Shown here piece by piece: positions 6,548 through 42,135 of a stretch of DNA of 64,000 nucleotides. The stretch lies in assembly GCA_003151975.1 (NCBI GenBank), contig PLZD01000010.1, positions 124,001-188,000 on the forward strand. Direction: 5' to 3'. The stretch is from Elusimicrobiota bacterium. Its GTDB lineage: Bacteria; Elusimicrobiota; Elusimicrobia; UBA1565; UBA9628. Each line of letters opens with the position of its first letter. Position 1 is the stretch's first letter. The notes beneath the pieces are model-generated. The model searched no databases. It saw nothing but the letters and a program-made list of their open reading frames with translations, and was not told the origin of the DNA. The position numbers and the translations under genes are program-made.

Positions 6548-6551
6548 GCGT

Positions 6552-19646: not shown

Positions 19647-20507
19647 CTACTTGGCGACGAGCGCTCCTTGCAGGCCTGCGGAGAGAGGCGTGAACGCGAG
19701 CTTCGGCAGCACGCGCCGCAGCAAGGCGTTATCAAAAGCATGGTCGGCCTTGGCCTTCGTGCGCGGACGGCTCTCGGTCGTTGGATTCGGGGCGAGCTTG
19801 GCGACCTCAGTCAGCACATCCTGAAAAGTGACGCTGTGGCCGCTGACGAGGTTCAGCACGCCCGAGAAGTCGCTCTCGAGCAGGCCCGCGATCGCGGCGC
19901 AGACGTCGTCGATGAAGATGAACTCGCGCTTCTCGAGGCCGTCGCCCCAAACGGTCACGGTCTCGCCTTTGGACGCCGCGCGCAGAAAGCCCATCGGGCC
20001 GTAGGGCCGGCCCGGCTCGTCGGCGCCGTAAATCGTCGCGGGCCGCAGGACGACGAGCGGCGAGGTCTTCTTGCCTTCGACGGCTTTAATTAAGATTCTC
20101 TCGCACGCGAATTTTGCCATGCCGTAGTAGGAAGTCGGATTGACGGCCGTGGCTTCCAAGATCGCCGTGTTGTGCGTGTCTTCGCCGTAGACGGCCGTCG
20201 AGCTGAAATAGATGAAGCGCGAGACCGCGCCGTCCTTGAGCAGCGGCGAGAGGTTGGCCGCCATGGCGACGTTCTTCTGGTAGTTCTCGAGCGTGTCGCC
20301 GGCTTGGCGCTTGATGGCCGAGCACATGACGACTGCCGTGCCGGGGACGAAGTATTCAGCGAGGCGCTGGCAATCCTTGGCCTTGGTCAGGTCGATATCG
20401 GCCAGCGAGAGCCCCGAGACTTCGAGACCGCGGGTCGCGAGGACGCGCCGCAAGTTCGCGCCGACAAAGCCGGTGTGGCCGAGGATCAGGATGCGGCTGA
20501 CTTTCAT
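19647..20507 (-). CDS. NAD-dependent epimerase/dehydratase (nucleotide sugar)
   Basis: 286 residues. Rossmann loop ILGHTGFVGANLRR at the N-terminus, then YFSSTAVYGED and the catalytic pair in SYYGMAKFACE (Y-x-x-x-K), followed by LRPATIYGADEPGRPYGPMG and EFIFIDDVCAAI. Shape and length match sugar 4-ketoreductases or epimerases. It overlaps the C-methyltransferase stop as ATGA and lies 3 bp before the aminotransferase, so it works on the same deoxy-amino-sugar. Confidence 0.87.
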   Translation of the reverse strand: MKVSRILILGHTGFVGANLRRVLATRGLEVSGLSLADIDLTKAKDCQRLAEYFVPGTAVVMCSAIKRQAGDTLENYQKNVAMAANLSPLLKDGAVSRFIYFSSTAVYGEDTHNTAILEATAVNPTSYYGMAKFACERILIKAVEGKKTSPLVVLRPATIYGADEPGRPYGPMGFLRAASKGETVTVWGDGLEKREFIFIDDVCAAIAGLLESDFSGVLNLVSGHSVTFQDVLTEVAKLAPNPTTESRPRTKAKADHAFDNALLRRVLPKLAFTPLSAGLQGALVAK

Positions 20508-21766
20508 AGCACCTCAACCTTGGGAAGCGGCGTGATGAACTGAACTCCCTGCGCGCGCAGCGCGCCGTGCTTCTTTAGGATGGGCTCGGCGTAGCGCCAC
20601 GGCAGGATGACGACCGCGTCGGGCTTCTTGTCGTAGAGCGCGGATGAGGGTAAAACCGGCACGCGATGGCCCGGGCTGTAGGTGTGGTGCTTGCGTGGAT
20701 TGTCGTCGACGATGTAGTCGAGATGCTTGGCGCAGTCGAAATAGTGCAGGAGCGTGGTTACGCTGTGCGAGGCGCCGTAGCCGGCGACCGTCTTGCCTGC
20801 GGCCTTGAGGTCTTTGAGCATCGCGTTGAGCTCGGCCTTGATGCCATCGAGGTGTTTGCCGAGGTCGCGGTAGGTCGAGATTTTGTCGAGGCCGAATTCT
20901 TTTTCGCGCTTGATGAACTCGGCGACCGAGGCGTCAACTTTGCGCGGGCCGCCCTTGAGCTGCACTGTGCCGCGCAGCGAGCCGCCCTTGGTCTCGACGC
21001 GCTCGCAATGAATGAGCTCGAGGCCGTGGCGCGCGAAAAAGGGCACGAAGGGCTCGACCGAATGATACGAGGTGTGCTCGTGATAAATATTGTCGAAGAC
21101 TTTGTTCTTGATCGTGTCGAGCAGGTAGCCGCTCTCGAAGCTAAACACGCCGTCGGGGGCCAGCAAGGTGCGCACGCCCGCCATGACGTCGTCAAGCACG
21201 TCGATGTTGGCGATCACGTTGTTGGCGCAGACAATCGAGGCTGCGCCCTTCTCGGCGCGGATTTTCTTCGCGAGAGCCTCGGTGAAATACTCGGGCCAGG
21301 TCTCGACGCCGGAGGCGGTCGCCTCAGAGGCGACCTTGCGCGCCGGATCGACGCCGAGCGTCTTCATGCCGTGTTTTTGGAACGCGCGCAGCAATGTGCC
21401 GTCGTTGGAGCCGAACTCGACGACGAGCGAGCCCTTTTTGGTCTTGAGCCGCTCGACAACGGAGGCGGCGTACGCGTCGAAGTGGTCCTGCAGGCCGAGC
21501 GAGGTCAAAGTGACGTAAATGTAGTCGCGATAGAGAATGTCGGGATCGACGACGTCGAGCAAATGCGCGTGATGGCAGTCGCGGCAGAGAAACAATTCGA
21601 GGGGGAAGGATTCCTGCGCTTCCTTAAGACGCTCCTTGGGCCAGAAGGCATCGGCGACCGGGGTCGGGGCGAGTTTGAGCGCGAGATCGAGGTCCTTTCC
21701 GCCGCAAAGTCGGCAAGTCGTGCGGCGCACGCAGGACGGCTTGGCGAGAGATTCAGTTGATGCCAT
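20504..21766 (-). CDS. SAM-dependent sugar C-methyltransferase
   Basis: 420 residues. Zinc-binding N-terminal domain with CRLCGG and CRDCHHAH, SAM loop VVEFGSNDGTLL with GVDPARK, then NNVIANIDVLDD and the YHEHTSYHS motif of the TylC3/EvaC family. The C-terminal domain has VAGYGASHSVTTLLHYF and YIVDDNPRKHHTYSPG. It should methylate a ring carbon of an NDP-4-keto-deoxysugar, giving a branched sugar. A close paralog is at 45054-46295. First gene of the unit under the promoter at 21774-21809; its leader is only ~7 bases from the -10. Confidence 0.9.
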   Translation of the reverse strand: MASTESLAKPSCVRRTTCRLCGGKDLDLALKLAPTPVADAFWPKERLKEAQESFPLELFLCRDCHHAHLLDVVDPDILYRDYIYVTLTSLGLQDHFDAYAASVVERLKTKKGSLVVEFGSNDGTLLRAFQKHGMKTLGVDPARKVASEATASGVETWPEYFTEALAKKIRAEKGAASIVCANNVIANIDVLDDVMAGVRTLLAPDGVFSFESGYLLDTIKNKVFDNIYHEHTSYHSVEPFVPFFARHGLELIHCERVETKGGSLRGTVQLKGGPRKVDASVAEFIKREKEFGLDKISTYRDLGKHLDGIKAELNAMLKDLKAAGKTVAGYGASHSVTTLLHYFDCAKHLDYIVDDNPRKHHTYSPGHRVPVLPSSALYDKKPDAVVILPWRYAEPILKKHGALRAQGVQFITPLPKVEVL

Positions 21767-21831: not shown

Positions 21832-24800
21832 TTAAAGAGGTTCTCCCACCACGGCTTTGCGAATCACGAATCGATTTTCCAAAGAGGTGTAGCCCATTAG
21901 TTTATTGGCAACGCCGAGGATGTAGACGCCGTCGCGAAGCACGGGCAAGTAGATCGTGAAGCGGCCGGGGGTCGTGACGGAAACCGTTCCGGCGTTGTGC
22001 GCGCCGTCGGTCAGGCCGGCGGTAAAGCCGCCTGCGAAAAGCTGTCCCTGAAGCATGACATAGCTGCCCTTGCGCAGGGCCCTCGGGCGGGCGATCATGA
22101 GGTCTGTATCGACCTCGGAGATGCTGACATCCTGAGCCCACGCTCGAGCGAGCCGAGATCTGGATCGGTTGCGTTGCGGCGTCAGGTAGATATCGACTCC
22201 CGGCGTCGCGTACCCTTCGACCGTCCAACCTTGGCCGGAGGGTCGGACGATCGAGGAGCGGGGCGCGACTTCGTCCGGACCGATAGCCGCTTCGCGAACG
22301 GTGGGGCCCGTCCGACGGGCGGGATCCTCCCCCAACGCCGAGCGCGCCCGATTCGGCTCCCAATCCTCCACGCGCTGGTACAGCGGGCCGGGGGCGGGTG
22401 GAACCTGGGCGGACAATAGGAAAGGGAACCGGCTCGGGTTGCGCACTCGCCGCAGGGAACGCAGGCAGCGGGATTGGTCTTGCGGCAATTCTATCCCCGC
22501 GAACCATTCCCACGCGGGAAAGAAATAAGCCGCTGTCGGGGAAGAATCGGCCATGGAGACGCGGAATGTACGCGACCAGTCGCTGTTGGCGCCGGCCACC
22601 GACGTACTGTATCGTAGGACGGGCCATAAGGTTGATTCCGGGCATCCCTCTCGGGTGAAATCGGCTCTAAAAAATTCAGCGCCCCGAAAGCCGCCGACAG
22701 TCTCGGTGGAAAGAATCGGCCTTGGGAAGAGCGCCGTCCCGCCGGGCAGCTGCCGCCATTTGCCTTCCCCCGCGCTCGAGGCAACCTCGGCCCGAGCATA
22801 ATCCCGCAGCAAGGCGTCCACGGCGCCGGTCTGATAGCGCCGGGCCGTCATCAGGGCGAGCAGCGCCAAGCCGCAGAGTCCGGCCGATGCGCCCGCCACC
22901 GCCGCCCAGCGCTCAAGCTTGGCGCGCCTGGCAGCGGCCAAGGGAGCGCGCCCGAAGATGTGTTTTCTATGCACGATGACATATTCCGCCACGATGCCCA
23001 GGTTCCACCATGAAAAATATTCGAGGTAGAAGTAGCTGCGGCCCCAAAACTGGGCGGTGGAGAGGGCCGACCAGAACGATAGAACCACGAGCTGCAGCAA
23101 GGCTAGGCGCAGGTCGGTGGCCAGGAGGATCAACATGGTCGCGGCAAACAACGGGACCTCGCTGCCCTGCAATGCGTTCTGCAGCGCACCGCGGACGGCA
23201 TAGAGCGTCGCCGGCGGGCCGGCGCTCCATCCCTGCGGGGGCAACCGGTACAGGAAGGAGAGGCCGAGAATCCGCAGCGTGCCTGCGTAAAGCTTGATCA
23301 GGAAGTCTGCCGGGAAGATGAGCAGGTATGCCTTGAGGTAAGGCCAGCCCGTCATCCTCCATGCGGGAGTGTCGTAAAATGATGCCGGCTGGGATCCGGG
23401 AGCCGGACTCGGCGCGCTGCGGGGGGGCAGGACCAGATTGGCCTGAGAAGCGACATAGTCATCCATGAAGAGGTAGCCGACATCGTAGCTTGGACGCGTG
23501 AGCCCGAGAAGCGAGTCCATCGGGGTCATGAAGCCGCCCGCGCTGTTGACGGCGCAAAATGGAAGGATGGGCGTGGGGACGACCGCCCCGAAGGAAAAAA
23601 TAAGCATCAAGACGCCGAACGCTTTGAGCTTCACGGGATGCTTCTCGGCCGGGATCAGGAAAATGACGACGAGCGACGCCGGAAGCAAGAAGAGCGGAAG
23701 CTCTTCCCGCGAAAAGCGGCCAAGTCCTGCTGTCAATCCGATGGCCGAGGCCAAGATGCCGACGGAGGCGAAGGTCCGTCCGCTTCTCACGAGCAAGCCG
23801 AGCAGGAAAATGATCGCAAGCGCGAAGGGCGCCCGAGAGTAATCGCGCATGGGAGAGGAAGCCAGGATATAAAGCTGCTGCGAGGAGCTGCAAAACGCGA
23901 GGGCGCCCAGGGTGGCGGTCCATCGGCCCATGCCGATCCGAAAAATCCCGTAGACGAGCGCGGTGGCGCTGCCTAGCAAGACGCCATAGTACCAGAGAGG
24001 CCATTGCGCCCATCCCAGCGTCGGGAGGAACAGCTCCGCGGCGTTCCCGCCTATGGCTCGAGAGGCGTATCGTCGAGCGATCAGGAATCCGAGGCCGAAA
24101 AGGAAGCTGCTCGTCCAGACGTCGGGAGACCTGGCGAGTTCGGCGGCCAAGAGACGCGGCGAAGCCATGTCGAGTCGCCGCCGATTGAAGCCGAACTTCC
24201 AAAACCCGATCGCCAGCACCGCGAGGGCGAACAGGAATCTCGCCGCGCTGAACGTGCCAGTCAGGAAGAATTTGCCCGTCCCGTGCGGCGTAGCGAAGCT
24301 GGACGCGGCCTGTCGGGCGGCCTGCCGGGCTGCCTTCCGCCGGACTTTTTCCGTCAAACTGCGTTGGACGATTTGCGCGTCGGCGAGGGCGCCGGGCCGA
24401 AGCCGGACGTCCAGCGCGACGGCTCCCGGGAGCACCTCGACGCGCTCGATCCCGTTGGGCAGCGCGAAGGGCTTGCTGAGGTCCAGCGGAGGCCGCTGTT
24501 TGGTGCCGACCGTGTCGAGCACGCTCCGGACCAGAGCGGCGGGCAGGGGGATGCCTCCTACCTTGGCCGACCTGATGGTCACGGACATTTGTCCCAGCTC
24601 GGATGTCGCCTCGGCTTCGAGCTCCACGGAGTTGTCCATTGCCAGGAGGCCCGTGATCCTCCGCAGCCACATCAAGGTGGCGGCGTTGCTGGCGAAGCGC
24701 CGCGGGTCTACTCCGATGCGCGCCACCGCTTCCGCCGAGACGACATGTCCCGGCTTGAAGTGCACTGTCGCCGATCTAGGGTCGAAGCCTTCCCTGCCTC

Positions 24801-25065
24801 CATTGGCATCGATCCAGAACCTGATGTAGGAGTTGACATCCTCCTCCGTGAGGGAAAAGCGCCGGCTCTGCGACGGCGCGGGCCGCGTCTCGTCGCGGCC
24901 GCGGGATGTGTTGCGCTGAAGGGTGAGTAGGGTCCTTTCAACCCTTTGCAGCCCGGCGTCCGCGGTGTCGTCGGCCGCCGCGGCCGCCGGCGCGAGCCGC
25001 GCGCAGACGACGGCGATCAAGGCCAGCGCCCCCAAGACGGCCGGTCGGGCCCTGAGCGCCGTCAA
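21832..25065 (-). CDS. Giant multi-domain membrane protein (GT-C-like), copy 1
   Basis: 1077 residues from TTG 25065, overlapping the acetyltransferase stop (TTGA). This start gives a clean signal peptide or anchor (hydrophobic ~9-22, Ala-rich to ~32); an open extension upstream is arginine-rich and rejected. Residues ~60-230 form a soluble domain (SLTEEDVNSYI, FKPGHVVSAEAVAR, PLPAALVRSVLD). About ten membrane helices follow (~270-760) with SSPMRDYSRAPFALAI, SREELPLFLLPA and RPSYDVGYLFMDDY. The last ~310 residues are beta-rich and extracytoplasmic (GYATPGVDIYLTPQ, GVYILGVANKLMGYTS). Likely a polyprenyl-sugar-dependent transferase or polymerase by layout; no family recognised. Confidence 0.8.
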   Translation of the reverse strand: MTALRARPAVLGALALIAVVCARLAPAAAAADDTADAGLQRVERTLLTLQRNTSRGRDETRPAPSQSRRFSLTEEDVNSYIRFWIDANGGREGFDPRSATVHFKPGHVVSAEAVARIGVDPRRFASNAATLMWLRRITGLLAMDNSVELEAEATSELGQMSVTIRSAKVGGIPLPAALVRSVLDTVGTKQRPPLDLSKPFALPNGIERVEVLPGAVALDVRLRPGALADAQIVQRSLTEKVRRKAARQAARQAASSFATPHGTGKFFLTGTFSAARFLFALAVLAIGFWKFGFNRRRLDMASPRLLAAELARSPDVWTSSFLFGLGFLIARRYASRAIGGNAAELFLPTLGWAQWPLWYYGVLLGSATALVYGIFRIGMGRWTATLGALAFCSSSQQLYILASSPMRDYSRAPFALAIIFLLGLLVRSGRTFASVGILASAIGLTAGLGRFSREELPLFLLPASLVVIFLIPAEKHPVKLKAFGVLMLIFSFGAVVPTPILPFCAVNSAGGFMTPMDSLLGLTRPSYDVGYLFMDDYVASQANLVLPPRSAPSPAPGSQPASFYDTPAWRMTGWPYLKAYLLIFPADFLIKLYAGTLRILGLSFLYRLPPQGWSAGPPATLYAVRGALQNALQGSEVPLFAATMLILLATDLRLALLQLVVLSFWSALSTAQFWGRSYFYLEYFSWWNLGIVAEYVIVHRKHIFGRAPLAAARRAKLERWAAVAGASAGLCGLALLALMTARRYQTGAVDALLRDYARAEVASSAGEGKWRQLPGGTALFPRPILSTETVGGFRGAEFFRADFTREGCPESTLWPVLRYSTSVAGANSDWSRTFRVSMADSSPTAAYFFPAWEWFAGIELPQDQSRCLRSLRRVRNPSRFPFLLSAQVPPAPGPLYQRVEDWEPNRARSALGEDPARRTGPTVREAAIGPDEVAPRSSIVRPSGQGWTVEGYATPGVDIYLTPQRNRSRSRLARAWAQDVSISEVDTDLMIARPRALRKGSYVMLQGQLFAGGFTAGLTDGAHNAGTVSVTTPGRFTIYLPVLRDGVYILGVANKLMGYTSLENRFVIRKAVVGEPL

Positions 25066-25613
25066 GGGACTGGAGCTTGCAGAGTCTTGATCTCTCGCGC
25101 CGGGACTCCGGCGACGGCGCGATCCGCGTGGACCTTCTCGCGCACCAGCGAGCAAGCCCCGACGAAGCTTCGCGGCCCGACTTCGACGCCATGGAGCAAG
25201 ACCGCGCCGGCGCCGATGAAGGAGCCTCCGCGGATCGCGACGGCTTTGGTCTGGGCCGGGAAAACCTTCTGCAGGGGATGGTCCGCGTACCCCACATTGA
25301 GGTGGGTCAAGATCAGCACTCGCTCCGCCAACGTCACTTGGTCCTCGAGCACGACGGGCGCGGCGAGGTCGATCAAGGTCTCGTCGCCGAGGAAGCAGTC
25401 GTTTCCGATAGTCAGCCCGCCGAACCCGGTCCGATAATAATTGAAGAACCGGACGTCGTGGATGATGCAATTAGAGCCGATCTTCGCGCCCAGCAGGCGT
25501 AAATAGACGGACCGGAACTGAGGGAACGGAATCGCGCGATAGATCAGATAGAGAAAAGTGAAGACGAGAAACTTGAGGCTCTTGGCCATGCCGATCTCTT
25601 GGTAGGCCTTCAC
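25062..25613 (-). CDS. Left-handed beta-helix (LbH) acyltransferase, WbbJ/maltose-acetyltransferase-like
   Basis: 183 residues from GTG 25613 (GTGA overlap with the methyltransferase); MAKSLKF nine residues in is an alternative start. A hydrophobic N-terminal stretch FLVFTFLYLIYRAIPFP is followed by hexapeptide repeats: IGSNCIIHDVRFFN, IGNDCFLGDETLI, IRGGSFIGAGAVLLHGVEV and VGACSLV. The C-terminus ends in AGVPAREI, the usual tail. It would O-acetylate a sugar of the glycan. Lies between a methyltransferase and the giant membrane protein. Confidence 0.88.
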   Translation of the reverse strand: MKAYQEIGMAKSLKFLVFTFLYLIYRAIPFPQFRSVYLRLLGAKIGSNCIIHDVRFFNYYRTGFGGLTIGNDCFLGDETLIDLAAPVVLEDQVTLAERVLILTHLNVGYADHPLQKVFPAQTKAVAIRGGSFIGAGAVLLHGVEVGPRSFVGACSLVREKVHADRAVAGVPAREIKTLQAPVP

Positions 25614-26428
25614 GTCTTCCTCGCCACCACGACCAGCGAGCCGCCGAAAGGCAAGGACGCGCCGAGCTTGATCAAGGACTCGTCCAGCCGCATCGGGATC
25701 TCGAGCAAGCGGCTGATCAGCGGCGGCAGCTTCAGTTCTCCGTAGTCGAACTCGCCGCTAGAAGAGGACGCGCCGGCGCCCTTGAGCAGGCGCGAGACCG
25801 CCATGACGGGAAAAAGCGCGAAGACAAAAGAGCTCGCGAACTCGATCTTGAAGCCGCCCTCGCGGAGCTTGCGGGTCAACTCGGACCGCGTGTATCTGCG
25901 TTTATGGCCGGAGGCCGCGTCCTGCGCGCTCCATAGCCAAGGGTGTTGCGGCACCGACAGAAAAAAGAGCCCGCCCTTCTTGAGCGTCCGATGGACGTTC
26001 CTCATGACCTCGAGATCCTCGTCGATGTGTTCCAGCACGTCGAAGGCGCCCACGGCGTCGAACTCGCCATCAAACGGGGTCCTGCGGATGTCCAATTGCA
26101 GGAACTCGACGTTGGGCAAGCGTTGGCGCGCGAATCTCAGTCCCTCCAGGTGGAGCTCGGCGCCGAAAAGCCGGTAGCGAGGAAATTCGGAAAGGCCCTG
26201 GAGGACGAACCCCGTCCCGCAGCCAACCTCGAGCACCGTGGCGGGTCCTGGGCCCAAGAAGCGCGAGAACAGGTTCAGGATGATCCGGTTCCTGGAGCGG
26301 AACCAGAAATTGGCCGACTCAAGCTCGAAAAGGACCTTAAAGAACGCCGGATCGTAGTCGGAGCCTCCCAACGCGGCGTCGGGAGCGTAGCACTTGATGC
26401 CCTCGATCATCTGGAAGTCCTGTTTCAT
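25610..26428 (-). CDS. Class I SAM-dependent methyltransferase
   Basis: 272 residues from ATG 26428, preceded by GGGAG; a longer open frame (to 26953) reads through the GT2 gene and is rejected. The SAM-binding loop is VLEVGCGTGFVLQGL, then FGAELHLEG, LDIRRTPFDGEFD and FDVLEHIDEDLEVM. PQHPWLWSAQDAASGHKRRY and TRSELTRKL match methyltransferases seen beside GT2 enzymes in glycan loci. A C-terminal hydrophobic patch (ASSFVFALFPVMAVSRLL) could attach it to the membrane. It may methylate a lipid-linked sugar (inference). Confidence 0.85.
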   Translation of the reverse strand: MKQDFQMIEGIKCYAPDAALGGSDYDPAFFKVLFELESANFWFRSRNRIILNLFSRFLGPGPATVLEVGCGTGFVLQGLSEFPRYRLFGAELHLEGLRFARQRLPNVEFLQLDIRRTPFDGEFDAVGAFDVLEHIDEDLEVMRNVHRTLKKGGLFFLSVPQHPWLWSAQDAASGHKRRYTRSELTRKLREGGFKIEFASSFVFALFPVMAVSRLLKGAGASSSSGEFDYGELKLPPLISRLLEIPMRLDESLIKLGASLPFGGSLVVVARKT

Positions 26429-26457
26429 CGTCGCTCCCGCGATGGCGGGCGACTCCT

Positions 26458-27282
26458 TCACCGGGAGGCCGATATCAGGGTGGAAGCCTCGGGGCGCCCG
26501 GGATGGTTGGGGCGCTTTTGGCCGTGCGCCGCAGGCTCCTGCGTCCGGACCAAAAGCTCCGGCCTGGAACGCAGCTCGATGCGCGCGCGCCACAGATGAC
26601 GCAAATACGCGAGGGCCTCTCGAAAAGGTTTGACGGTCGAGGTCTTGTCGAATCGACGTTGGAAGAGGCAGGGTATCTCGACCACGCGATATCGCATGCG
26701 GTGGGCGTAAGTCATCACTTGAGTGTCCCAGAACCAGCCCGGATTGGTCGCGACAGGCAGCAACTGCGCGAGCGCTTCCTCCCGGAAGAATTTGTAACCG
26801 GATTCCGTATCCCGGAACGGCAGCTGGAGGACCAGGCGCACGAGTCCCGCATAGCCGCGGCTTAGGAAATGCCTGAAAAGGGAGTGCCAGTAGACGCGGT
26901 AGATTCTGCGCCCCACCGCGACATCCGCGCCGTTCTCGAGCGCGAGCCAGCACGGGAGGATGTAATCGGCCCGAACCTCAAGGTCAATGTCGATGAAACC
27001 TCGGACCGATCCCTGGGCGGCCGCGAAGCCGGTGCGGACAGCCGCGCCCCGGCCGAGGTTCTTCTCGTGAAAGATGTGCCGCAACGTCTTGTCGGGGTAT
27101 TGCGTCAGGGCGCTGAGGATCAGTCCCCGCGTCCCGTCCTGGCTCCCGTCGTCGACGAAGATGACCTCGTAGCTCAGGCGCAGCGAGTCCAGGGTCTCGA
27201 GGATCTTAGGGACGTTCTCCTGGAAAGTCTCTCCCTCGTTGAAGCAGGGGAGGATGAGGCTGAGGTCGAGCTTCTGATTCAT
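26458..27282 (-). CDS. Polyprenyl-phosphate glycosyltransferase, GT2 family (DPM1-like)
   Basis: 274 residues. GT-A fold with LILPCFNEGETF, the nucleotide-sugar motif VDDGSQDGT and the metal-binding FIDIDLEV. Then LPFRDTESGYKFF, as in dolichyl/polyprenyl-phosphate sugar synthases. No C-terminal membrane helices, so it is a soluble, peripherally bound enzyme. It would make polyprenyl-phosphate sugar on the inner face of the membrane. It lies between the two giant membrane proteins, which need such a donor if they are GT-C enzymes. A promoter-like -10 is at 27297-27302. Confidence 0.9.
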   Translation of the reverse strand: MNQKLDLSLILPCFNEGETFQENVPKILETLDSLRLSYEVIFVDDGSQDGTRGLILSALTQYPDKTLRHIFHEKNLGRGAAVRTGFAAAQGSVRGFIDIDLEVRADYILPCWLALENGADVAVGRRIYRVYWHSLFRHFLSRGYAGLVRLVLQLPFRDTESGYKFFREEALAQLLPVATNPGWFWDTQVMTYAHRMRYRVVEIPCLFQRRFDKTSTVKPFREALAYLRHLWRARIELRSRPELLVRTQEPAAHGQKRPNHPGRPEASTLISASR

Positions 27283-27296
27283 GGGACGCTAAACCT

Positions 27297-27302
27297 ATTT
27301 TA
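27297..27302 (-). promoter_or_regulatory. Putative extended -10 promoter for the GT2 gene
   Basis: In the 84-bp gap 27283-27366 the minus strand has TGC-TAAAAT (TAAAAT at 27297-27302), an extended -10, 14 bases before the ATG at 27282. No convincing -35 is visible, as expected for extended -10 promoters. No inverted repeat of the GTTCA type occurs here. The rest of the gap shows nothing recognisable. Confidence 0.45.
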
Positions 27303-27366
27303 GCATGAGTTGGAGAGGGCTGCCTATCGTTTTCCGGAAAGGACTCCGAGCCGCAATCTCAGGGTC

Positions 27367-30300
27367 TTAGCGGCGCTCGCCGAATACGGCTCGCCGCACG
27401 ATGAAACGAGTCTCGAGCGAGGTGTACCAGGACAATTTGTTGGCGACGCCGAAGACGTAAGTCCCGTCCGCCGGTATGGGCAAGTAGGCGACAAACGGCC
27501 CGGGCATCGAGAAGGACACGGTGCCCGCGCTGTGGTTTCCATCGGTCAGCCCCGCCGTGAAGGCCCCGGCGAAGAGTTCTCCTTCAAGCAGAACGTAGTC
27601 GCCTTTGCGCAGCCGCTTGGGCCGCGCGACGACAAGGTCCGTATCGACTTCGGAGATGCCTATATCCCGGTTCCAAATCCGCGCAAGCCGAGAACGGGAG
27701 CGGTCGCGGCTCGGAGTGATATTGACGTCGACGCCCGGCGTGGCATATCCGCGAACCTCCAATTCTTGGCCTCTCCAGAATACGATGGGGTCGTTGAAGG
27801 CGATCTCGCCCGCGTTGATAGGCGTTTCGCGTCCATCAACGACCGGTTCCCTCAAGCGTCCCAAGAATTCGCCCGTCGTCGAGCGAATACGGCCGGCCTC
27901 CCAGTCTTCCAGCCGCTGGTAAAGAGGGCCTGGTCCGGGCTGGACTTGCGTCGAGAGAAGGAAGGGAAACCGGCCGGGGTCCTTCACGCGGCGCAGCGAA
28001 AGCAGACACGGAGAATCCTTCTTGGGAAGCTCTATGCCGGCGAACGATCTCCATGCGGGGAAAAAATAGGCGGAACCGGCCGACGCATCGGACATGGTAA
28101 TGCGGATGGTCCGGGACCAATCGTCGTTGGAACCCGCGCCGTAATATTTCAGCACCGGCCAGATCGTGGATTCGGGGCAATGTTCAGGAGAAAAATCGGC
28201 TCGGAAAAACTCAGCGCCCCCGACCGTGTCGGTGGACAAGGCCGGTCTGGGATAGACGACGGTGTCTCCGGGTAAGGTCGACCACTGGATTCCCGCCGTG
28301 CTAGGCGCGACCTCGGCCCGCGCATAATCCTGAAGCAGCGAGCCGACAACGCCGTCTTGGTACCGTCTTGCCGCGAGAAGAGCGGCCAATGAAAGGGCGA
28401 GCGCGCCCAAGACTACAGCGATCCCGCGACCCATACCGGTCCCAGTCAGCGCAACGCCGCGAGAAACGGGGCGCCTGCCGGTCAGGCGCCGCGCCCAAGG
28501 AACGGCGCATTGAGCGACAAGGCCCAGATTCCACCAGGAGAGATATTCCACATAGTAATAATTGCGTCCAAAAAACTGAGCGGTCGAAAGGCCGGAGAAA
28601 AAAGTGAAGAGGAGGAGCTGGAGCATCGCGAGGCGGAAGTCGGTCCCGGTCAGGATGATGACGGCCGCCGCGAAGAGGAGCGGCGCGCTGCCCGTCAACA
28701 CCCTCTGCGCGGCCGCGCGGACGGCATAGAACGCCAAGAGGCCCTCGTTGCGCAGGCCTTGAGGAGGTAGTTGGTACCGGAAAGGGAACTGCAGGAGCCT
28801 AAGCGCCGCAGCACAAATTCGGATAAGGAAATCGGCCGGGAAAATGCGGATGTATTTTGTGAAATAACTCTGCCCCGTAGGTTCCTGGACGGTGCCCTTG
28901 CCGGAGGCGGCCGAGGTCCGCTCGACGCTGGTCGGACCTGAGGCTCTCATGACGGTGATGGCTTGAGCGGCGATATGATCGTCCATGAAAAGATAGCCGA
29001 CATCGTAGCTTGGGCGAGTGAGTCCAAGCTGACCATCGAGCAGCGTGATGAAGCCGGCTGTGCTGTTGGTGGCGCCGAACCTGAGGACGGGCAAGGGCGT
29101 GATGATGCCGAAGCAGAAGGTCATCATCAGGAGGCCGAATGCTCGGATACGCGCGCCGTTCTTGGCGGGGACGGGTATTAGAAACACGATGACCAAGGCG
29201 GCGGGCACGAGAAAAAACGGAATCTCCTCCCTCTGGAAGGTGCCGAATGCCGCCGTCAGGCCGACGGCCGAGGCCAGCGCGCCGACCATGGCGAGCGTCC
29301 GGCCTCTCGTCACGAGAAGGCCGAGCAAAAGGATGATCCCGAGGGTGTAGGGGGCTCTGCAATAATCACGGAAGGGAGAAGAGGTCAAGACGTACAGCTG
29401 TTGGGACGAGGTACAGAACGCCAGGCTGCCCAAAACCGAGATCGCGCGGTTCATGCCGATCCTGCAAATGCCGTAGACCAGCGCGGCGCTAGCTCCCAAG
29501 AGGAAACCGTAGAGAGGGAGAGGCCAAGTCGCGGGTCCCAACGTCGGGGTGAAAAGCGTCGCGGCATGCCCGTTGATCGCGAGGGCGGCGTAGCTTCCGG
29601 CGATAGCAAAGCCGACGACGAAGAGCGCGCCGCCTATCAGGAAGTCCGGTGAGGCGACGAGTTCGGAAACAAACGCGCGCAGAGCCCCTCTGCGGGGTCT
29701 CCAGCGCAGCGAGGGCTTTCTCCACAGCAAGATGGCCAATAGAATCGTGGTCCCGAGAAATCGCTTCGTGAAGAAGGCTCCGATGAGACGGCGCCGCAGA
29801 GAGGGGGGAGGCGGCAGAACCGCTGGCGGCGGAGGGGGGGTGCTTGCAGCGAGCCGAGCGGCCTTGAGTCTTTTCTTTTCTTCCAGCTTTCTCGAGACGA
29901 GCCTTTTGTCGGCGAGGGCGCCGGGCTGCAGGTCGACATCCAGTTCGATGGCTTGCGGTAGGACCGCGATGCTCGCTATCCCGTTAGGCATCGCGAAAGG
30001 CGCGTCGAAGTCGAGAGGCGGCCTCTGGTTCTTCCCGACGACCTCGAGTACCCTGCGGACCAGCGCGGCTGGCAAGGAGACGCCGCCGACCTTGGCCGAC
30101 TCAACGGCGAGGGACAGCCGTCCGTCATTGGCCGTCGCGACGCATTGAACCTGAAGAGCTGTGTCATTGGTCAGGATGCCGGTCAAGCGTCGAACCAATA
30201 GCGTCGAGGACATGTCGCCCAGGTATCGGTGCCAGTCGACGTGGACTCTGGCGACTGCCTGCGCCTCGATGATATTGCCGGGCTTGAAATGGACCGAGGC

Positions 30301-30570
30301 CGATCGAAAGTCGACGCCTTCCTTGCCTCCGTTCGCGTCGATCCATAATCCGGCATAGGCGTTGACATCGTCTTCCGTCAACTCGAAGCGCTTGCGCGTC
30401 GTGGGCGCCGAGCGCGCGGCGTCTTGGCGCGGCCGTTTGTTTCTCTTTAGGGTCTGCAGCGTCCTTTCGACGCTTCGCATCCCCGTCTCCGTCGAGTCAG
30501 GCGCGGCGTTGGCGAGCGGCGCCGACAGCGCGGCGAACAGCAATAGGCTGATGGCCCCGCGGTAATTCAA
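27367..30570 (-). CDS. Giant multi-domain membrane protein (GT-C-like), copy 2
   Basis: 1067 residues, paralog of 21832-25065 along its whole length. TTG start at 30570: the frame opens just after an in-frame TAG, and this gives the signal peptide AISLLLFAALSAPLANA. Residues ~62-220: soluble domain (ELTEDDVNAYAGLWIDANGG). A Pro-rich linker (~245-260) follows. About ten helices with SSPFRDYCRAPYTLGI, FQREEIPFFLVPAAL and RPSYDVGYLFMDDHIAAQ. The C-terminal ~310 residues are extracytoplasmic, ending in TRFIVRRAVFGERR. Charged-residue motifs in loops (R-D-Y, R-E-E) are conserved between the copies. Function unknown; likely acts on lipid-linked glycans. Confidence 0.8.
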   Translation of the reverse strand: MNYRGAISLLLFAALSAPLANAAPDSTETGMRSVERTLQTLKRNKRPRQDAARSAPTTRKRFELTEDDVNAYAGLWIDANGGKEGVDFRSASVHFKPGNIIEAQAVARVHVDWHRYLGDMSSTLLVRRLTGILTNDTALQVQCVATANDGRLSLAVESAKVGGVSLPAALVRRVLEVVGKNQRPPLDFDAPFAMPNGIASIAVLPQAIELDVDLQPGALADKRLVSRKLEEKKRLKAARLAASTPPPPPAVLPPPPSLRRRLIGAFFTKRFLGTTILLAILLWRKPSLRWRPRRGALRAFVSELVASPDFLIGGALFVVGFAIAGSYAALAINGHAATLFTPTLGPATWPLPLYGFLLGASAALVYGICRIGMNRAISVLGSLAFCTSSQQLYVLTSSPFRDYCRAPYTLGIILLLGLLVTRGRTLAMVGALASAVGLTAAFGTFQREEIPFFLVPAALVIVFLIPVPAKNGARIRAFGLLMMTFCFGIITPLPVLRFGATNSTAGFITLLDGQLGLTRPSYDVGYLFMDDHIAAQAITVMRASGPTSVERTSAASGKGTVQEPTGQSYFTKYIRIFPADFLIRICAAALRLLQFPFRYQLPPQGLRNEGLLAFYAVRAAAQRVLTGSAPLLFAAAVIILTGTDFRLAMLQLLLFTFFSGLSTAQFFGRNYYYVEYLSWWNLGLVAQCAVPWARRLTGRRPVSRGVALTGTGMGRGIAVVLGALALSLAALLAARRYQDGVVGSLLQDYARAEVAPSTAGIQWSTLPGDTVVYPRPALSTDTVGGAEFFRADFSPEHCPESTIWPVLKYYGAGSNDDWSRTIRITMSDASAGSAYFFPAWRSFAGIELPKKDSPCLLSLRRVKDPGRFPFLLSTQVQPGPGPLYQRLEDWEAGRIRSTTGEFLGRLREPVVDGRETPINAGEIAFNDPIVFWRGQELEVRGYATPGVDVNITPSRDRSRSRLARIWNRDIGISEVDTDLVVARPKRLRKGDYVLLEGELFAGAFTAGLTDGNHSAGTVSFSMPGPFVAYLPIPADGTYVFGVANKLSWYTSLETRFIVRRAVFGERR

Positions 30571-30598: not shown

Positions 30599-31570
30599 TC
30601 ATCCGGGCGTTGAAGTCGTCCGCGGATGAGTTGCTGTCCCCTGGTCGATGAGAGAGCGGTGCCACTCCAAAGCGTCCTTCAGGGTCTGGTCAAGAGCCCA
30701 GGCGGGCTTCCAGGCAGCAGCGGCGAGGCGCCGACCGTCTCCGACCACGCGGGGCAGATCGGAGGCCGTCATGCGCGTCGGGTCATTGGCCACCTGTATC
30801 GAGGCCTTGGACAGCGCGACGAGTCCGCGAAGGATGCCTCGGATGGGCACGCCGCGGCCGGAACAGACGTTGTAGAGCGGTTGATGCAGCAGAGGTGAGC
30901 CGAGTTCGATCAACGCTTCCGCGACGTCGCGCACGTCGATAAAGTCCCGCACGCTGGCGAGATTTCCAACGCTCATGCGCGCGGGCTGGAGGCCTCGCTC
31001 GATGCGGGCGATCTGCCGGGCGAAGGCACCGGGGGCCAGGTTGTCGGGAATGCCGGGGCCCACCGCGTTGAAAATGCGCGCGACGACGACGTCCATCCCG
31101 CGCTCCCTGTAAGAGAGGGCGGCCAAAGTCTGCGCCAGCTTCGTGGCGCCGTAGGGAGTCGCCGGCAGCGTGGAGGATTCTTCATTGATGGGCTTAGAGC
31201 CCGCGGCCGTCCCGTACTCCGCCGAAGATCCCGATATGACGAGCCGCGGACGGCGGGACTTGGGCAGAAGCCGCGCGGCTTCCAGGAGCCGCAGAGTGGT
31301 CTGCACGTGCGCTTGCCACATGCCGTTCCAGCCGACCGGCTTGGTCGTGCCAGCGAGGTGGTAGATCAAGGCTGGCTTGAACCGGGCGATGAGCCGGCGC
31401 GTCGCCGCGGCGTCGCGAAGGTCGCAGGCGACATGCCCGCGCACAGGCGCGCGATGGACCGCGATGAGCCGCGCCTTCGGGTGCGTGCGCCGCAGGGCTC
31501 GGATCAGATGCGGCGCCATGAACCCGCGGCTACCGGTGATCATGATCGTGGTCGCAGTCGTGGTGGTCAT
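30599..31570 (-). CDS. NAD-dependent epimerase/dehydratase, GDP-4-keto-6-deoxymannose reductase-like
   Basis: 323 residues. Starts with a Thr-rich tail, then IMITGSRGFMAPHLIRALRR. HLAGTTKPVGWNGMW, ISGSSAEYG, the active site TPYGATKLAQTL and RIFNAVGPGIPDNLAPGAFARQ match RMD-type reductases, which make GDP-6-deoxysugars (rhamnose or talose type). RDFIDVRDVAEAL is the usual C-terminal motif. No GDP-mannose 4,6-dehydratase gene is in the window, so the substrate would come from elsewhere. It may also act on another 4-keto-6-deoxysugar. Confidence 0.86.
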   Translation of the reverse strand: MTTTTATTIMITGSRGFMAPHLIRALRRTHPKARLIAVHRAPVRGHVACDLRDAAATRRLIARFKPALIYHLAGTTKPVGWNGMWQAHVQTTLRLLEAARLLPKSRRPRLVISGSSAEYGTAAGSKPINEESSTLPATPYGATKLAQTLAALSYRERGMDVVVARIFNAVGPGIPDNLAPGAFARQIARIERGLQPARMSVGNLASVRDFIDVRDVAEALIELGSPLLHQPLYNVCSGRGVPIRGILRGLVALSKASIQVANDPTRMTASDLPRVVGDGRRLAAAAWKPAWALDQTLKDALEWHRSLIDQGTATHPRTTSTPG

Positions 31571-31581: not shown

Positions 31582-32532
31582 TTACAGGTTGACCTTCTCG
31601 TCGACGATGTACAGCGGCCGGCGCTTGACCTCATCGAAGATCGAACCGATGTATTCTCCGATAACGCCCAGGAAGAATAGCTGGGTGCCGCCGAAGATGA
31701 GGATAAGAATGGCCAGGGTGGCCCAGCCCGTGGGGAAATAATTCGGAGTGAAAAGATATTTGACCAGCAGGTTGAACGCATATAAGAATCCCAACAGGGC
31801 CAGGGCCAGGCCGCCGAAGATGCCCCAGCGCAGGGGCGCCTTGCTGAAAGAAGTGATTCCCTCCAGCGCGAATTGGATGAGCCGCGCCGTCTTGTATTTG
31901 CTCTCGCCCGAGCGGCGGGCTTCCACTTCGAACTCAACCTCGGCGGAATCGAAGCCGACCCAGGAAATGAGGCCGCGCAGGAACTGGTTATGTTCGCGGA
32001 GCTGCTCCCGGAAAATGAGGGCGACCCGCCGCGAGATCAGTCGGAAATCGGCCGCCCCGGGATGGATCGGGACATTCGCGAGCCGGTTGACGACGCGGTA
32101 GAAGAGGCTCGAAAGTTGTCTCCTTAAGAGGCCGACGTTCTCGTTGTCGCGGCGAATCGTGTAGACCACGTCCTTGCCTTTCTCGAACTGCTCGAGGAGC
32201 CGAGGCAGCACGCTCGGAGGATGCTGCAAGTCGCTGTCCATCATGATGATGGCGTCCGAATCGGAATGATCGATGCCCGCGACCAGCGACATTTGGTGGC
32301 CGAATCGCGAGGAGAGCCCCAGGACCTGAACACGTCCGTCGGAATCGGCGATGCGCTTGGCGGTGGACAGAGACGAATCGGAGCAGCGGTCGATGACGAA
32401 AAGAATCTTCGATTCGTAGTGGTCCTTGATGTCATCGAGAACCTTGCGCAGTTCGATGTAGAAGATAGGCAGGTTTTCCTGCTCGTTGTAGACGGGGCTA
32501 ATGACCGTCAGGGTGCGCTTGATTTCCGACAT
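31582..32532 (-). CDS. GT2 glycosyltransferase with C-terminal membrane helices (GtrB/ArnC/YfdH-like)
   Basis: 316 residues. Catalytic domain VISPVYNEQENLP, FVIDRCSDSS, MMDSDLQHPPSVLP (DxD-like) and NENVGLLRRQLSSLFYRVVN, then two membrane helices at ~235-257 and ~267-290 (FGGLALALLGFLYAFNLL; ILILIFGGTQLFFLGVIGEY). This is the form of polyprenyl-phosphate glycosyltransferases that supply GT-C enzymes. It is upstream in the same unit as giant membrane protein copy 2, so each giant protein lies next to one such donor synthase. DRCSDSS in place of DDGSxDxT is a known family variant. Confidence 0.9.
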   Translation of the reverse strand: MSEIKRTLTVISPVYNEQENLPIFYIELRKVLDDIKDHYESKILFVIDRCSDSSLSTAKRIADSDGRVQVLGLSSRFGHQMSLVAGIDHSDSDAIIMMDSDLQHPPSVLPRLLEQFEKGKDVVYTIRRDNENVGLLRRQLSSLFYRVVNRLANVPIHPGAADFRLISRRVALIFREQLREHNQFLRGLISWVGFDSAEVEFEVEARRSGESKYKTARLIQFALEGITSFSKAPLRWGIFGGLALALLGFLYAFNLLVKYLFTPNYFPTGWATLAILILIFGGTQLFFLGVIGEYIGSIFDEVKRRPLYIVDEKVNL

Positions 32533-34630: not shown

Positions 34631-36451
34631 TCATAGTAGGTCGCGATGGCGTTCCAGGAAGTCCGCGTCGATGCGGCCGGAGAGGCTCAAGCCGGCGGCC
34701 TCGACGAGCGCGTCGAAGCGCCGCTGCAGCTCGGTCGGCGGAGCCGAGCGCCTGACACCGTTCGCATCGAAGTTGGCGAGCATGTCTTCGACGGCGCGCC
34801 GGATGTCTTCTGGCGAATTGGAAACGACCGTGGCGCCGAGGTCATCGTAGAGGAATTGAGTCGCCGCTCCCACGTAGGGTTCCTCAAGCATCTCTCTGAA
34901 AGTCAGCAGATGCCCATCCGTGGCTTTGACCAATTTGGGAACGACCACATCGTCGGGTAGATAGGCTGTGCAAAGCATCGGGAGATTGTTGGTTTGCAGT
35001 GAGGCGGTGCCGAAGGAGTTTGGAATGGCGGAGAGCCCGGACTGCGTTCCAATGTAGAAGCGGCATTGGGAGGCGAGGTAGACATCCATCCAGTCGCTGC
35101 GAAAATCGCTGTGGGCGTAGTCGATCACGTGTTCAAGCGCGGGAAGCGGCGGCATCGCGGGATCGCCCATCCGAAAGACCCAGCCGCCGCGATCGGTGAT
35201 CGACTTGAACGCGTTGAAATAGCTCTCTATGTCGGCGTTGCGAAAGGCCTCGCTGCCCCGGTCCTTATAAAAGGAAGAAGTGCGGGCATGCACGGCCACC
35301 CACCAAGCGCCATCCGGGAGCCCGATCTTTCGCAGCATGTCCTTTCCCCGAGCAATGTCGTGATCGCTCAAGGTCAGCAAGGGGGGGCGGCTGTCCGCGG
35401 CCCAGCGCTTGTGCACCTCGGAAACGGCGGCGCCGAGAAACCTCGGGGCCGCATCAAAGCGCATTCCCCAGCCCAGCGGCATCTCGCTGAGAGCCTTGCG
35501 GGCGGAGACCGCAGCGATCTCTTCGGGGGATTCGAGTATGTCCACGTAAGGCTTGAAATAGGAAAGAAAGGCCTTGTTGACCGATCGACCCTCCGGCGCG
35601 CAGAGGATGAGCCGCTCGCCGGTGCCAAGCATGATTTTCTTTTTGACGTGCGTGGTGAGCCAGCCGATGGCCCCGATGGCTTGGGCGCAGAAGTCGGGGA
35701 GAAACTCGACGTCGGGCCCGGCCTTTTGGAACTCGACGAATTTTGGGTCTTGTTCCTTGAGCGCGAAGATGCGGCCCAGGGTCCGAGTGAAATCTTTCCA
35801 GCGTCCCGCCAGCGGGTAGCACCACAGCAGCTTTTCCCACGCCTCGAGGGTCTCGCCTTGGCGCAGCGACGCCTCGAGATGAACCGTGGCGGTCCTGAGA
35901 AGCGCGACGGTCTTGGTGGAGTTTGCCTGGCTCGCGTAGTTGTCCATGTAGCGCGAGGCGATAAACAGGTCGTCCCCGGAGCGGATCGCTTCACCGGTGG
36001 GCCAGCGGGCGTTCGGGTCGAGAGTCAGGGCCTTGTCATAATGGCGCATGGCGGCGTCCAGATCGAAATCCTTGAACAGAAGATCGGCGAGCGTCGCGTG
36101 GATATCGGCCTGTCCCGGCCGCAGCTCGAGCGCGCGGCTGAGGTCGGCGATGGCCTCGGCACGGGTGCCGAGACTCGCGAGGATCATTCCGCGCGATGCA
36201 TACGCGTCGGCGCATGACGGGTCCAAGGAGATGGCCGAATTGCAGAGCGGCAAGGCGAGTTGATATTGCTGGAGATCAGCGTAGAGCCGAGCGAGCTTGC
36301 CTATATTGGCGCCGCTAGGCCGCAAGGAGGCCTTTGCTCGGGCCAGGCCGACGCGCAGCATCGGGCGGTGATGCTTGGGCATGACGAATTTGACCGCGTC
36401 CCAGACGCCGAGCTTCTGCAGGGATTCCCGGACGCGCTGTTTAATTTTCAT
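34631..36451 (-). CDS. TPR repeats plus TIGR04372-type glycosyltransferase, copy A
   Basis: 606 residues from ATG 36451 (ATGA overlap); an extension of the open frame to 36598 is arginine/proline-rich and rejected. TPR units lie within ~30-170 (LYADLQQYQLALPLCNSAIS, AEAIADLSRALELRPGQADI). The C-terminal ~230 residues match the TIGR04372 glycosyltransferase family: WVAVHARTSSF, FRNADIESYFNAF, GGWVFRMGDPAMPPLPALE and SDWMDVYLASQCRFYIGTQS. It ends in FLERHRDLL. Substrate unknown; acts in assembly of the surface glycan. TPRs may hold the partner enzymes. Confidence 0.82.
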   Translation of the reverse strand: MKIKQRVRESLQKLGVWDAVKFVMPKHHRPMLRVGLARAKASLRPSGANIGKLARLYADLQQYQLALPLCNSAISLDPSCADAYASRGMILASLGTRAEAIADLSRALELRPGQADIHATLADLLFKDFDLDAAMRHYDKALTLDPNARWPTGEAIRSGDDLFIASRYMDNYASQANSTKTVALLRTATVHLEASLRQGETLEAWEKLLWCYPLAGRWKDFTRTLGRIFALKEQDPKFVEFQKAGPDVEFLPDFCAQAIGAIGWLTTHVKKKIMLGTGERLILCAPEGRSVNKAFLSYFKPYVDILESPEEIAAVSARKALSEMPLGWGMRFDAAPRFLGAAVSEVHKRWAADSRPPLLTLSDHDIARGKDMLRKIGLPDGAWWVAVHARTSSFYKDRGSEAFRNADIESYFNAFKSITDRGGWVFRMGDPAMPPLPALEHVIDYAHSDFRSDWMDVYLASQCRFYIGTQSGLSAIPNSFGTASLQTNNLPMLCTAYLPDDVVVPKLVKATDGHLLTFREMLEEPYVGAATQFLYDDLGATVVSNSPEDIRRAVEDMLANFDANGVRRSAPPTELQRRFDALVEAAGLSLSGRIDADFLERHRDLL

Positions 36452-38160
36452 GGCGTCAGGGCCGCGGAGTTCTCGAGGAGCTCCGGGTGGTTCCGTAGAA
36501 AATCGCGGCCGACTCGTCCGCCGAAATATCCCCCGTGGGAATTGGATATCCGGGCGAAGCTGCGCTGAAGGGTCTCGTCCTCCTCGCGGTAGGCGCACCG
36601 TCCTTCGCAGCGCTCAAGCATCTCGAGGGCCAGGGCCGCGATGTCATCGGCGGAGTTGTCCACGGCGTTGAGGCCGCGTTCGTCGAGATGTCGAGCGTAC
36701 TGCTGTCGGCCGATTCCCGCCTCGTATATCTCGGCCAGGGTCAAGACTCGGCCTTTATCCCGCGAGCGTACGAGCTTGGGAATCCACACGACTTCGCGAT
36801 ACCACAAGGGATGGCCGATGGGAACCCAATTAGTCAGGCCGCAGGGGACTCCGTAGATGGGCGGCACGGAAGCGGGGCCAGAGGCGGTCCCTATGAAGAA
36901 TCGGCATCCTGCGAGCAGGAAGATGTCCATCCACTCCGTCCGGAGCTCGGAGTGCGCAAAATCGATGACGCGTTCCATCGGCGGGAGCCGCTTCATCGCG
37001 CGGTCTCCGATCCGCACGACCCAGCCGCCGCGGCTCGTGATTTCTCGGACAGCGTCGAAATAAGTGCTGATGTCGGCGTTGCGCGGATTGCGCTGCTCTT
37101 CATCGATTCCTTTCCAGTAGCCCGCCTCCCGCACGTGGAGGCAAACGAACCACGCGTCATCGGGCATGCCGAGTTCCCTCAGAACGTCGCGAACCTTGCG
37201 CTTATCCTCATCGGAAAGGCGCAGTAGAGGCGGACGCCCTTCGGCCTCCCAGCGCTGCTCCACCTCGAAGGCGGCGGGAAGAAACCATTTCGATCGGCCA
37301 TCAGGCATCGTCACCGTCCACATGTCGTCCTGCAGGAGTTTCGCGTCGTCCTCGGAGAGGCCGGCGGCGGAAACGTCCGCCACGACCTCGAGGCGCGGTT
37401 CCCAGATACGCACGAGGGCTTCGTTGGTTTTCGTCGGAGCGGTGCGCCCTGGTCCGACCGCCACCAAGGTTCTTTGCGGCGGCCGCATCCCCAACTCCTG
37501 CATCTTGAAGTAGAAATCCAAGACGGCGAGGTGAAAGCTGCTCCACGAAGGCCCGATGAATCTGACCCCGCGGCGATCCAAGCCGCGGCTGCGGGCGAGC
37601 TGATCGCGGATCTCTCCAGATTTCGCCCAGATTTCCTCCGCCTTCGCGAAGTCTCCGGAGTAAAGGAAGGCCTGGCCCGCGGTGATGTAATAATCCGGCT
37701 CTTCCGGATCGCAAGAAAGCGCCGCCTCATAGAACTTGAGCGTCTCGGGGACGGAGCGCGGATCTTCGAGGCGTTTGAAGAGCTCGCGGCCGATGGCCAT
37801 GCACGCGCGCGCCTTCGCGGCCGGCGGCTCGAGCCCCAGCTCGACGGCCTTGCGGTAATCGAGCGCGGCGTCGGCGAGATTCCCGCGGAAGGCTTTGACG
37901 TCGGCGCGAGAGTTGAAGGCCGAGGCGCAAAGCGGATCGGCGGTGAGCGCGTCGGCGCAGCTTTGCAGAGCGTCCTCTGGGCACTCCCAGCTCAGTTGAG
38001 CGCGGGAGAGTTCGCTGTAGGCCTCCGCCAGCTCGCGGCGGCGGCCGCGAAGGCGCGCGAGAACGATGCGCGCCATCGGCCGTCGGTACTTCGGCAGTAG
38101 GCGCCGGGCGATCGGCAGGAGCCCGGCCGAATCCAGCCATGATTTTAGACGACGCTTCAT
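36448..38160 (-). CDS. TPR repeats plus TIGR04372-type glycosyltransferase, copy B
   Basis: 570 residues. TPR-like repeats in ~30-185 (EAYSELSRAQLSWECPEDAL, DAALDYRKAVELGLEPPAA, YYITAGQAFLYSGDFAKAEE). The GT region has WFVCLHVREAGYWKG, PRNADISTYFDAVREI, GGWVVRIGDRAMKRLPPM, RTEWMDIFLLAGCRFFIGTA and the closing FLRNHPELL. Closest in build to copy D (42132-43838), which shares the SWSSFHLAVLDFYFKM-type central region. Coupled by 4-bp overlaps to copy A and to the ABC transporter, so the three likely work together in one export step. Confidence 0.82.
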   Translation of the reverse strand: MKRRLKSWLDSAGLLPIARRLLPKYRRPMARIVLARLRGRRRELAEAYSELSRAQLSWECPEDALQSCADALTADPLCASAFNSRADVKAFRGNLADAALDYRKAVELGLEPPAAKARACMAIGRELFKRLEDPRSVPETLKFYEAALSCDPEEPDYYITAGQAFLYSGDFAKAEEIWAKSGEIRDQLARSRGLDRRGVRFIGPSWSSFHLAVLDFYFKMQELGMRPPQRTLVAVGPGRTAPTKTNEALVRIWEPRLEVVADVSAAGLSEDDAKLLQDDMWTVTMPDGRSKWFLPAAFEVEQRWEAEGRPPLLRLSDEDKRKVRDVLRELGMPDDAWFVCLHVREAGYWKGIDEEQRNPRNADISTYFDAVREITSRGGWVVRIGDRAMKRLPPMERVIDFAHSELRTEWMDIFLLAGCRFFIGTASGPASVPPIYGVPCGLTNWVPIGHPLWYREVVWIPKLVRSRDKGRVLTLAEIYEAGIGRQQYARHLDERGLNAVDNSADDIAALALEMLERCEGRCAYREEDETLQRSFARISNSHGGYFGGRVGRDFLRNHPELLENSAALTP

Positions 38161-41503: not shown

Positions 41504-42135
41504 GCCCGCACCGCCTCCGCGGGAGAGCGTCCTTGCAGGCACCAACTCTCGATCAGGCTGCGTCCGCGGCCCGGCAGAATCTCGAGCGGCGCGCCCGCGG
41601 CCAGGGCGCCTGGCTCCACGTCGCGGTCGACGACGGCGTTGATTCCCACGACGACGTCGTCGCCCAGGCGGCAGGCGCCGATGACGGAGGCGCGCGTCGA
41701 GAAGACGCAATTGTCGCCGGCCGTCGGCACGCGTTCGACTTCCTCGGGAGTCCAGCTCTTCACGCCGAAGAGCACGCCGGCCAGGATCGTTGCGTTGGCG
41801 CCGATGCGCGTCTTGTGCGCGATCACGACTCCCACCGGATGACCGATGAGTAATCCCGGGCCGATCTCTGCCGCAAATCCAATGTCGGCGCCGCACAGCG
41901 CCAGGTTGAGCCGCATCGCGCAGCGCGCGAGGAAGATTAGACGGTTCAAGAAAAGCCAATGCCCCAGCCGGTAGAGGAACGCGGACTGAAAGCCCGCCTT
42001 AAAGAGCACGATGTCCACTGTCGCGCGCAACGGGCGCGGCCCCGAGGGGTTGAGCGTGCGTCCGTAAGTCGTGAACCGGTCGAGGTCTGAGCCGACCAGC
42101 CGCGAGAATTCGCCGTAGGTGGAGAGCGGGCTCAT
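41500..42135 (-). CDS. Serine O-acetyltransferase-like LbH acyltransferase
   Basis: 211 residues. An N-terminal helical part (FKAGFQSAFLYRLGHWLFLN) is followed by hexapeptide-repeat turns: CGADIGFAAEIGPGLLIGHP, HKTRIGANATILAGVLFGVK, DNCVFSTRASVIGACRLGDDV and INAVVDRDVEPGALAAGAP. This is the CysE/colanic-acid-acetyltransferase layout. The IGHPVGVVIAHKTRIGANA segment carries the catalytic histidine. In a glycan operon it would O- or N-acetylate a sugar rather than serine. Flanked by two TPR glycosyltransferases with 4-bp overlaps. Confidence 0.86.
   Translation of the reverse strand: MSPLSTYGEFSRLVGSDLDRFTTYGRTLNPSGPRPLRATVDIVLFKAGFQSAFLYRLGHWLFLNRLIFLARCAMRLNLALCGADIGFAAEIGPGLLIGHPVGVVIAHKTRIGANATILAGVLFGVKSWTPEEVERVPTAGDNCVFSTRASVIGACRLGDDVVVGINAVVDRDVEPGALAAGAPLEILPGRGRSLIESWCLQGRSPAEAVRA

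Follow-up and report, generated by a model that had tools for sequence, protein, structure and literature searches.

Paralogous membrane proteins with TULIP-like and GT-C-like regions encoded in a probable surface-glycan gene cluster of an Elusimicrobiota bacterium

Two large genes, which we call A (21832-25065) and B (27367-30570), lie on the minus strand of the 64,000-nucleotide stretch of DNA that we analyzed, hereafter the window, and the span that they delimit (21832-30570) also holds three unrelated genes, placed between them. B begins at a TTG codon and encodes 1067 amino acids, and its coordinates are those given in an earlier note on this DNA. The coordinates of A needed revision, as its open reading frame extends up to 25470, longer than the likely coding sequence. 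We place the start of A most likely at the TTG at 25065, because the bases there overlap the TGA of the neighboring acyltransferase gene and because the product, of ~1077 residues, then has a clean signal peptide. Both reading frames are intact, and the two proteins align over their full length with 55% identity (1083 columns), in agreement with the earlier description of two paralogous membrane proteins of ~1070 residues. By the Nei-Gojobori method, dN between A and B is ~0.38 and dS ~1.4, with purifying selection in the N-terminal domain (N-domain), the core and the tail; as this constraint extends over every domain, the likeness of A and B is not due to chance. Synonymous divergence varies along the genes: dS is ~0.8 in the part that encodes the signal peptide and N-domain (24385-25065 and 29917-30570), and ranges from 1.3 to saturation in the core and tail. 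Gene conversion is a possible cause of the low dS in the former part.

Judged by hydropathy, A and B have the same layout: a signal peptide, an outer N-domain, one helix, a basic inner loop, ~11 more helices and an outer tail. This is the arrangement of secreted N-domain, multi-helix core (~12 helices) and extracytoplasmic tail that the earlier note described, except that the tail, counted from the end of the last predicted helix, has ~330 residues, where ~310 had been given. In B, the N-domain spans residues 59-218 (29917-30396), the core residues 262-740 (28351-29787) and the tail residues 741-1067 (27370-28350); the corresponding parts of A, all likewise on the minus strand, are 24385-24867, 22843-24273 and 21835-22842. 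The motifs that had been picked out are all present: LTEEDVN in A, which reads LTEDDVN in B; SSPMRDYSRAP in A (23827-23859), which reads SSPFRDYCRAP in B (29350-29382); and RPSYDVGYLFMDD, which is the same in A (23458-23496) and B (28978-29016).

The genes around A and B are largely of the kinds that make and modify sugars. On the same strand lie a hexapeptide acyltransferase gene (25062-25613), whose stop overlaps the start of A, a methyltransferase gene in the same run (25610-26380) and a GT2 glycosyltransferase gene between A and B (26458-27282). Directly upstream of B is a gene for an NAD-dependent sugar epimerase/dehydratase (30599-31570, minus strand), and a further minus-strand gene (31582-32532) encodes a GT2 with two C-terminal helices, an ArnC/PgfS-like polyprenyl-phosphate-sugar synthase and probable donor maker, which scores 255 bits to PgfS and 147 to ArnC, both under the equivalog cut-offs. 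Epimerases, two C-methyltransferases, a DegT aminotransferase, an acetyltransferase and radical-SAM genes are also found around A and B, and from this gene content we read the region as a deoxysugar or surface-glycan cluster. The 4.6-Mb genome has 54 PMT_2 matches at E<=0.001 (54-58 PMT_2-type GT-C matches overall), the highest count of 37 relatives, the others having 5-40, and nine Wzy_C matches over the cut-off, while the GtrA-type flippase family was not found in it.

Three further observations concern the window. The two sugar C-methyltransferases (Methyltransf_13/14; 20504-21766 and 45054-46295) belong to one family. ARAGORN calls a tRNA-Ser (cga) at 27162-27257 on the plus strand, inside the GT2 gene of the opposite strand, and the call is probably spurious. 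Four otherwise unlike proteins (34631-36598, 36448-38160, 42132-44258 and 62677-63951), at least one of them with TPR repeats, share a C-terminal motif like LGRDFLxxHPELL.

Sequence searches of Pfam, NCBIfam and the PDB with the full-length proteins, the N-domain, the core and the tail gave no significant match, which confirms for these databases the earlier statement that no named family was known for A and B. Specifically, A and B matched no GT-C family in Pfam up to E=10 or in NCBIfam up to E=1, no Emb family in Pfam up to E=10, and neither Wzy_C nor the YfhO family in Pfam. Among ~340 genomes of the phylum, A and B of this genome were the only proteins found with this core and tail, in searches that scored only a few candidates per genome and so may miss remote relatives. 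The remaining phylum-wide matches to core or tail were weak (E 0.002-1), and, as they were short and scattered, we took them as chance. Other phyla were sampled solely by two exact-peptide scans of genome contigs, which returned no relative of A or B, and none came from two scans of viral contigs or from plasmids. With few candidates scored per genome and other phyla thinly sampled, we do not claim that the core and tail are unique.

The N-domain had been guessed to bind lipid. Its top Pfam match in B is DUF2140, which is not significant (E=0.27, 11.2 bits against a curated cut-off of 34.3). We compared the N-domain, profile against profile, with five DUF2140 proteins fetched with a B. subtilis YpmS query, which itself matches DUF2140 at 1e-61 and a B. 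subtilis record at 99.5% identity. When profiles of the mature domains were compared, the score was 25.1, whereas 400 column shuffles reached at most 21.1; when the signal segments were included, it was 37.8 (57% probability), with 160 columns collinear. Single DUF2140 members scored 14.2-21.4 against the N-domain, and a null of 191 natural proteins peaked at 20.2: one member beat the whole null, three fell in its top 2-6% and YpmS itself lay inside it. As DUF2140, like DUF2993, has been assigned to the TULIP fold through remote homology (PMC6791001), the profile match makes a TULIP fold of the N-domain likely, though not proven, and we hold this assignment with moderate confidence. The lipid-binding guess thus gains a profile match to a TULIP family, that of YpmS, at a level below any curated cut-off.

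As a module, the N-domain is mobile: a third protein encoded in the same genome, an 873-residue frame on another contig (C63, L006:5443-8004), carries a counterpart of residues ~60-220, joined to a different multi-helix core that is not followed by an A/B-type tail. In this third protein, an aspartate stands directly after the first core helix, and the core shows a PMT_2-like register (hhalign score 26). Six other genomes of the phylum encode the N-domain by itself, as a secreted protein of ~200-215 amino acids. An alignment of nine members has the signature of an E-x-x-(V/I/L)-N-like helix start, G-(I/V/F)-x-(L/V)-P and then G-x-x-x-x-P-P-x-D, and A, B and the stand-alone members begin with a signal-like segment (by hydropathy and inspection), which points to a domain that is secreted or anchored to the outside of the membrane. 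In one of these genomes (G186, L111), the stand-alone gene (6234-6878) overlaps a GT2 gene (5191-6237), in a run that also carries an ABC transporter and a GLF/amine-oxidase-like gene and adjoins a significant PMT_2 (GT-C) gene. In three other genomes whose stand-alone genes were read in context, the neighbors are not obviously glycan genes.

GT-C enzymes are marked by a core of 7-13 transmembrane helices with outer loops and by an acidic catalytic residue or motif in the first outer loop. The core of A and B has ~12 hydrophobic segments, with an alternation of charge that, from hydropathy alone, fits an N-domain and tail that are both outside. A full-length AF2 model built from the two sequences had a pLDDT of 34.3 and was not used. 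In BLAST, neither A, B nor the C63 protein matched any of 30 GT-Cs of the same genome. Against a PMT_2 profile built from 30 GT-Cs of this genome, the combined A and B core scored 28.5 in hhalign, with helices 3-7 in the expected register, a value that all 400 decoys, shuffled or reversed, fell short of. This is about half the score of true GT-Cs: held-out GT-Cs scored 52-128, most non-GT-C membrane proteins 11-21 and one Wzy protein 27.2, and B alone scored 18-20, inside the null. In the predicted first outer loop (B 325-354), no aspartate or glutamate is conserved between A and B, the topology itself being a prediction. Conserved acids are found in the other predicted outer loops, with D402 in the second (SSPxRDYxRAP), E448/E449 in the third and D523, D530 and D531 in the large fourth, which carries RPSYDVGYLFMDD. 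We rejected A and B as plain PMT_2 members, as they have no family match and lack a conserved acid in the predicted first outer loop; for the partial profile score and the same loop, we do not file them as GT-C members and use the term GT-C-like, for which the support is weak to moderate. The earlier guess of GT-C transferases is weakly supported, with an in-register match that no decoy equals set against the far higher scores of true GT-Cs, the near-equal score of one Wzy protein and the missing acid.

The same comparisons bear on an improbable alternative, that the cores are Wzy- or ligase-like (of the polymerase or O-antigen ligase class), with the TULIP-like domain holding a lipid-linked glycan substrate. 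With a Wzy_C profile from this genome, B by itself reaches 24.6, more than its 20.5 with PMT_2, and a long outer loop with the conserved motif RPSYDVGYLFMDD would also fit such enzymes. However, the combined A and B core profile scores 16.8 against Wzy_C and 28.5 against PMT_2, and a match to Wzy_C in Pfam is absent.

The C-terminal tail ends in what may be a carbohydrate-binding module (CBM). In a tail model built from two sequences, the last ~90 residues of B form a beta-sandwich, the only part where pLDDT reaches ~70; by this model and a fold search, the CBM-like domain spans residues 975-1067 (27370-27648, minus strand), and the last ~93 residues of A (21835-22113) match it. Foldseek placed CBMs on top (a cellulosome glycan-recognition module, CBM36 and CBM4; E from 0.007, prob 1.00). 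VIA-align matched the tail to the pectate-lyase CBM 8wc1 over 92 residues (Z 8.2, rmsd 2.6), a Z near background for such models, so that we only lean towards a CBM; a viral fold search gave no informative match. The predicted fold thus argues, weakly to moderately, for a CBM as the terminal domain. The proposal in the earlier note that the cores are fused to their own substrate-handling domains fits the TULIP-like N-domain and the CBM-like tail, both of which are below firm assignment.

Two binding-like outer domains, and a predicted first outer loop that has no conserved acid, would also suit non-catalytic GT-C descendants, acting as scaffolds that bind a lipid-linked glycan and organize the other enzymes of the cluster. 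We give this possibility a slim chance, as the strongly conserved motifs, the acids in the other outer loops (D402, E448/E449, D523, D530, D531) and the purifying selection on the core suit an active site. Least probable is a lipid or glycolipid transporter or transferase unrelated to glycosyltransferases, with an N-domain that moves lipid and a core that is a channel or acyltransferase, a reading that draws on the lipid-binding-like N-domain and on a core with no significant family match but is at odds with the sugar-gene context of A and B, the stand-alone N-domain gene linked to glycosyltransferase genes in one genome and the weak GT-C register match of the core.

We prefer a model, to which we give about an even chance, in which A and B are inner-membrane, GT-C-like extracytoplasmic glycan enzymes with lipid-handling and glycan-binding domains of their own, a one-chain counterpart of LmeA/MptA. 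In its favor are the occurrence of the N-domain on two unlike cores and as a stand-alone gene that overlaps a GT2 gene near a PMT_2 gene, the PMT_2 register of the core, the CBM-led matches of the tail, the sugar-gene context and the precedents of CBM-bearing GT-C enzymes and LmeA/MptA. It is weakened by the absence of any domain at a curated cut-off, the lack of an acid in the predicted first loop and the score of B alone inside the null. In this model, A and B would act on the outer face of the membrane, where they would build or decorate a surface glycan, probably as GT-C-like transferases. The ArnC/PgfS-like GT2 would make a polyprenyl-phosphate-sugar inside the cell, some other protein would flip it outward, and A and B would then use it outside, on a lipid-linked glycan. 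The first helix would tether the secreted TULIP-like N-domain at the membrane, the N-domain would keep hold of the lipid portion of the acceptor (or donor), offering it to the core, and the C-terminal beta-sandwich would hold the sugar end, the growing glycan. What the analysis establishes is the layout of the two proteins, their paralogy and constraint, the mobility of the N-domain and the sugar-gene setting; the further steps of the model are inferred, and the handing over of lipid by the N-domain is speculative. A broader claim, that A and B represent a new class of membrane glycosyltransferase in which a TULIP domain in cis lifts the lipid-linked acceptor (or donor) to the core, a fused form of LmeA-MptA with two dissimilar cores in one genome, is possible but doubtful.

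TULIP proteins, LmeA and YpmS among them, occur widely in bacteria. If the preferred model is true, A and B would be physical evidence that lipid-carrier domains cooperate with membrane sugar-transferring enzymes: TULIP-like fusions to GT-C-like cores in two architectures, together with a stand-alone gene that overlaps a GT2 gene, would indicate that this cooperation is direct. In A and B, it could be tested within one polypeptide; the two proteins also form an uncharted family, in a genome with unusually many GT-C genes. We found no description of a GT-C-like core that carries a fused TULIP domain in the literature that we searched, which had most subscription journals outside its scope.

Several known systems resemble parts of A and B. 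YfhO is a large GT-C-like membrane protein that ends in an outer domain and is partnered by a GtrB-like GT2, features that A and B would share. However, A and B have no Pfam match to the YfhO family, and YfhO is not known to have a TULIP-like domain; CsbB-YfhO-GtcA is a lipoteichoic acid glycosylation system (PMC7389260). GT-C enzymes that bear CBMs are also known, namely GT136 (ORF12), EmbA/B/C and AftD, which combine a multi-helix enzyme with an extracytoplasmic CBM in a scheme with a polyprenyl-phosphate-sugar synthase nearby (PMC11127046), as A and B would. In contrast to these, A and B lack a Pfam match to them and a conserved acid in the predicted first outer loop, carry a TULIP-like N-domain that is unreported there, and occur in a genome without the GtrA-type flippase family. 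In size, A and B are similar to the Emb proteins.

The N-domain itself is closest to DUF2140/YpmS, a TULIP family of Gram-positive bacteria (PMC6791001): both have an N-terminal hydrophobic segment, an E-x-x-N-like helix start and a strand-strand-helix signature with G-x-L-x-x-P, in addition to the profile match. YpmS is a stand-alone, membrane-anchored protein, whereas the N-domain of A and B is fused to a multi-helix core and, at 11.2 bits, lies under the DUF2140 cut-off of 34.3. For the way in which such a domain may function, the nearest parallel is LmeA of mycobacteria, a DUF2993 TULIP/Chorein-N protein that maintains the mannosyltransferase MptA (PMC7643837). There, a periplasmic TULIP protein that binds lipid acts together with a membrane mannosyltransferase that depends on polyprenyl-phosphate-mannose (PMC7643837), a pairing that resembles our reading of A and B. 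Whereas LmeA and MptA are two proteins, A and B, with an N-domain nearest to DUF2140 among Pfam models and a core that has no Pfam match, would unite the two parts in one chain.
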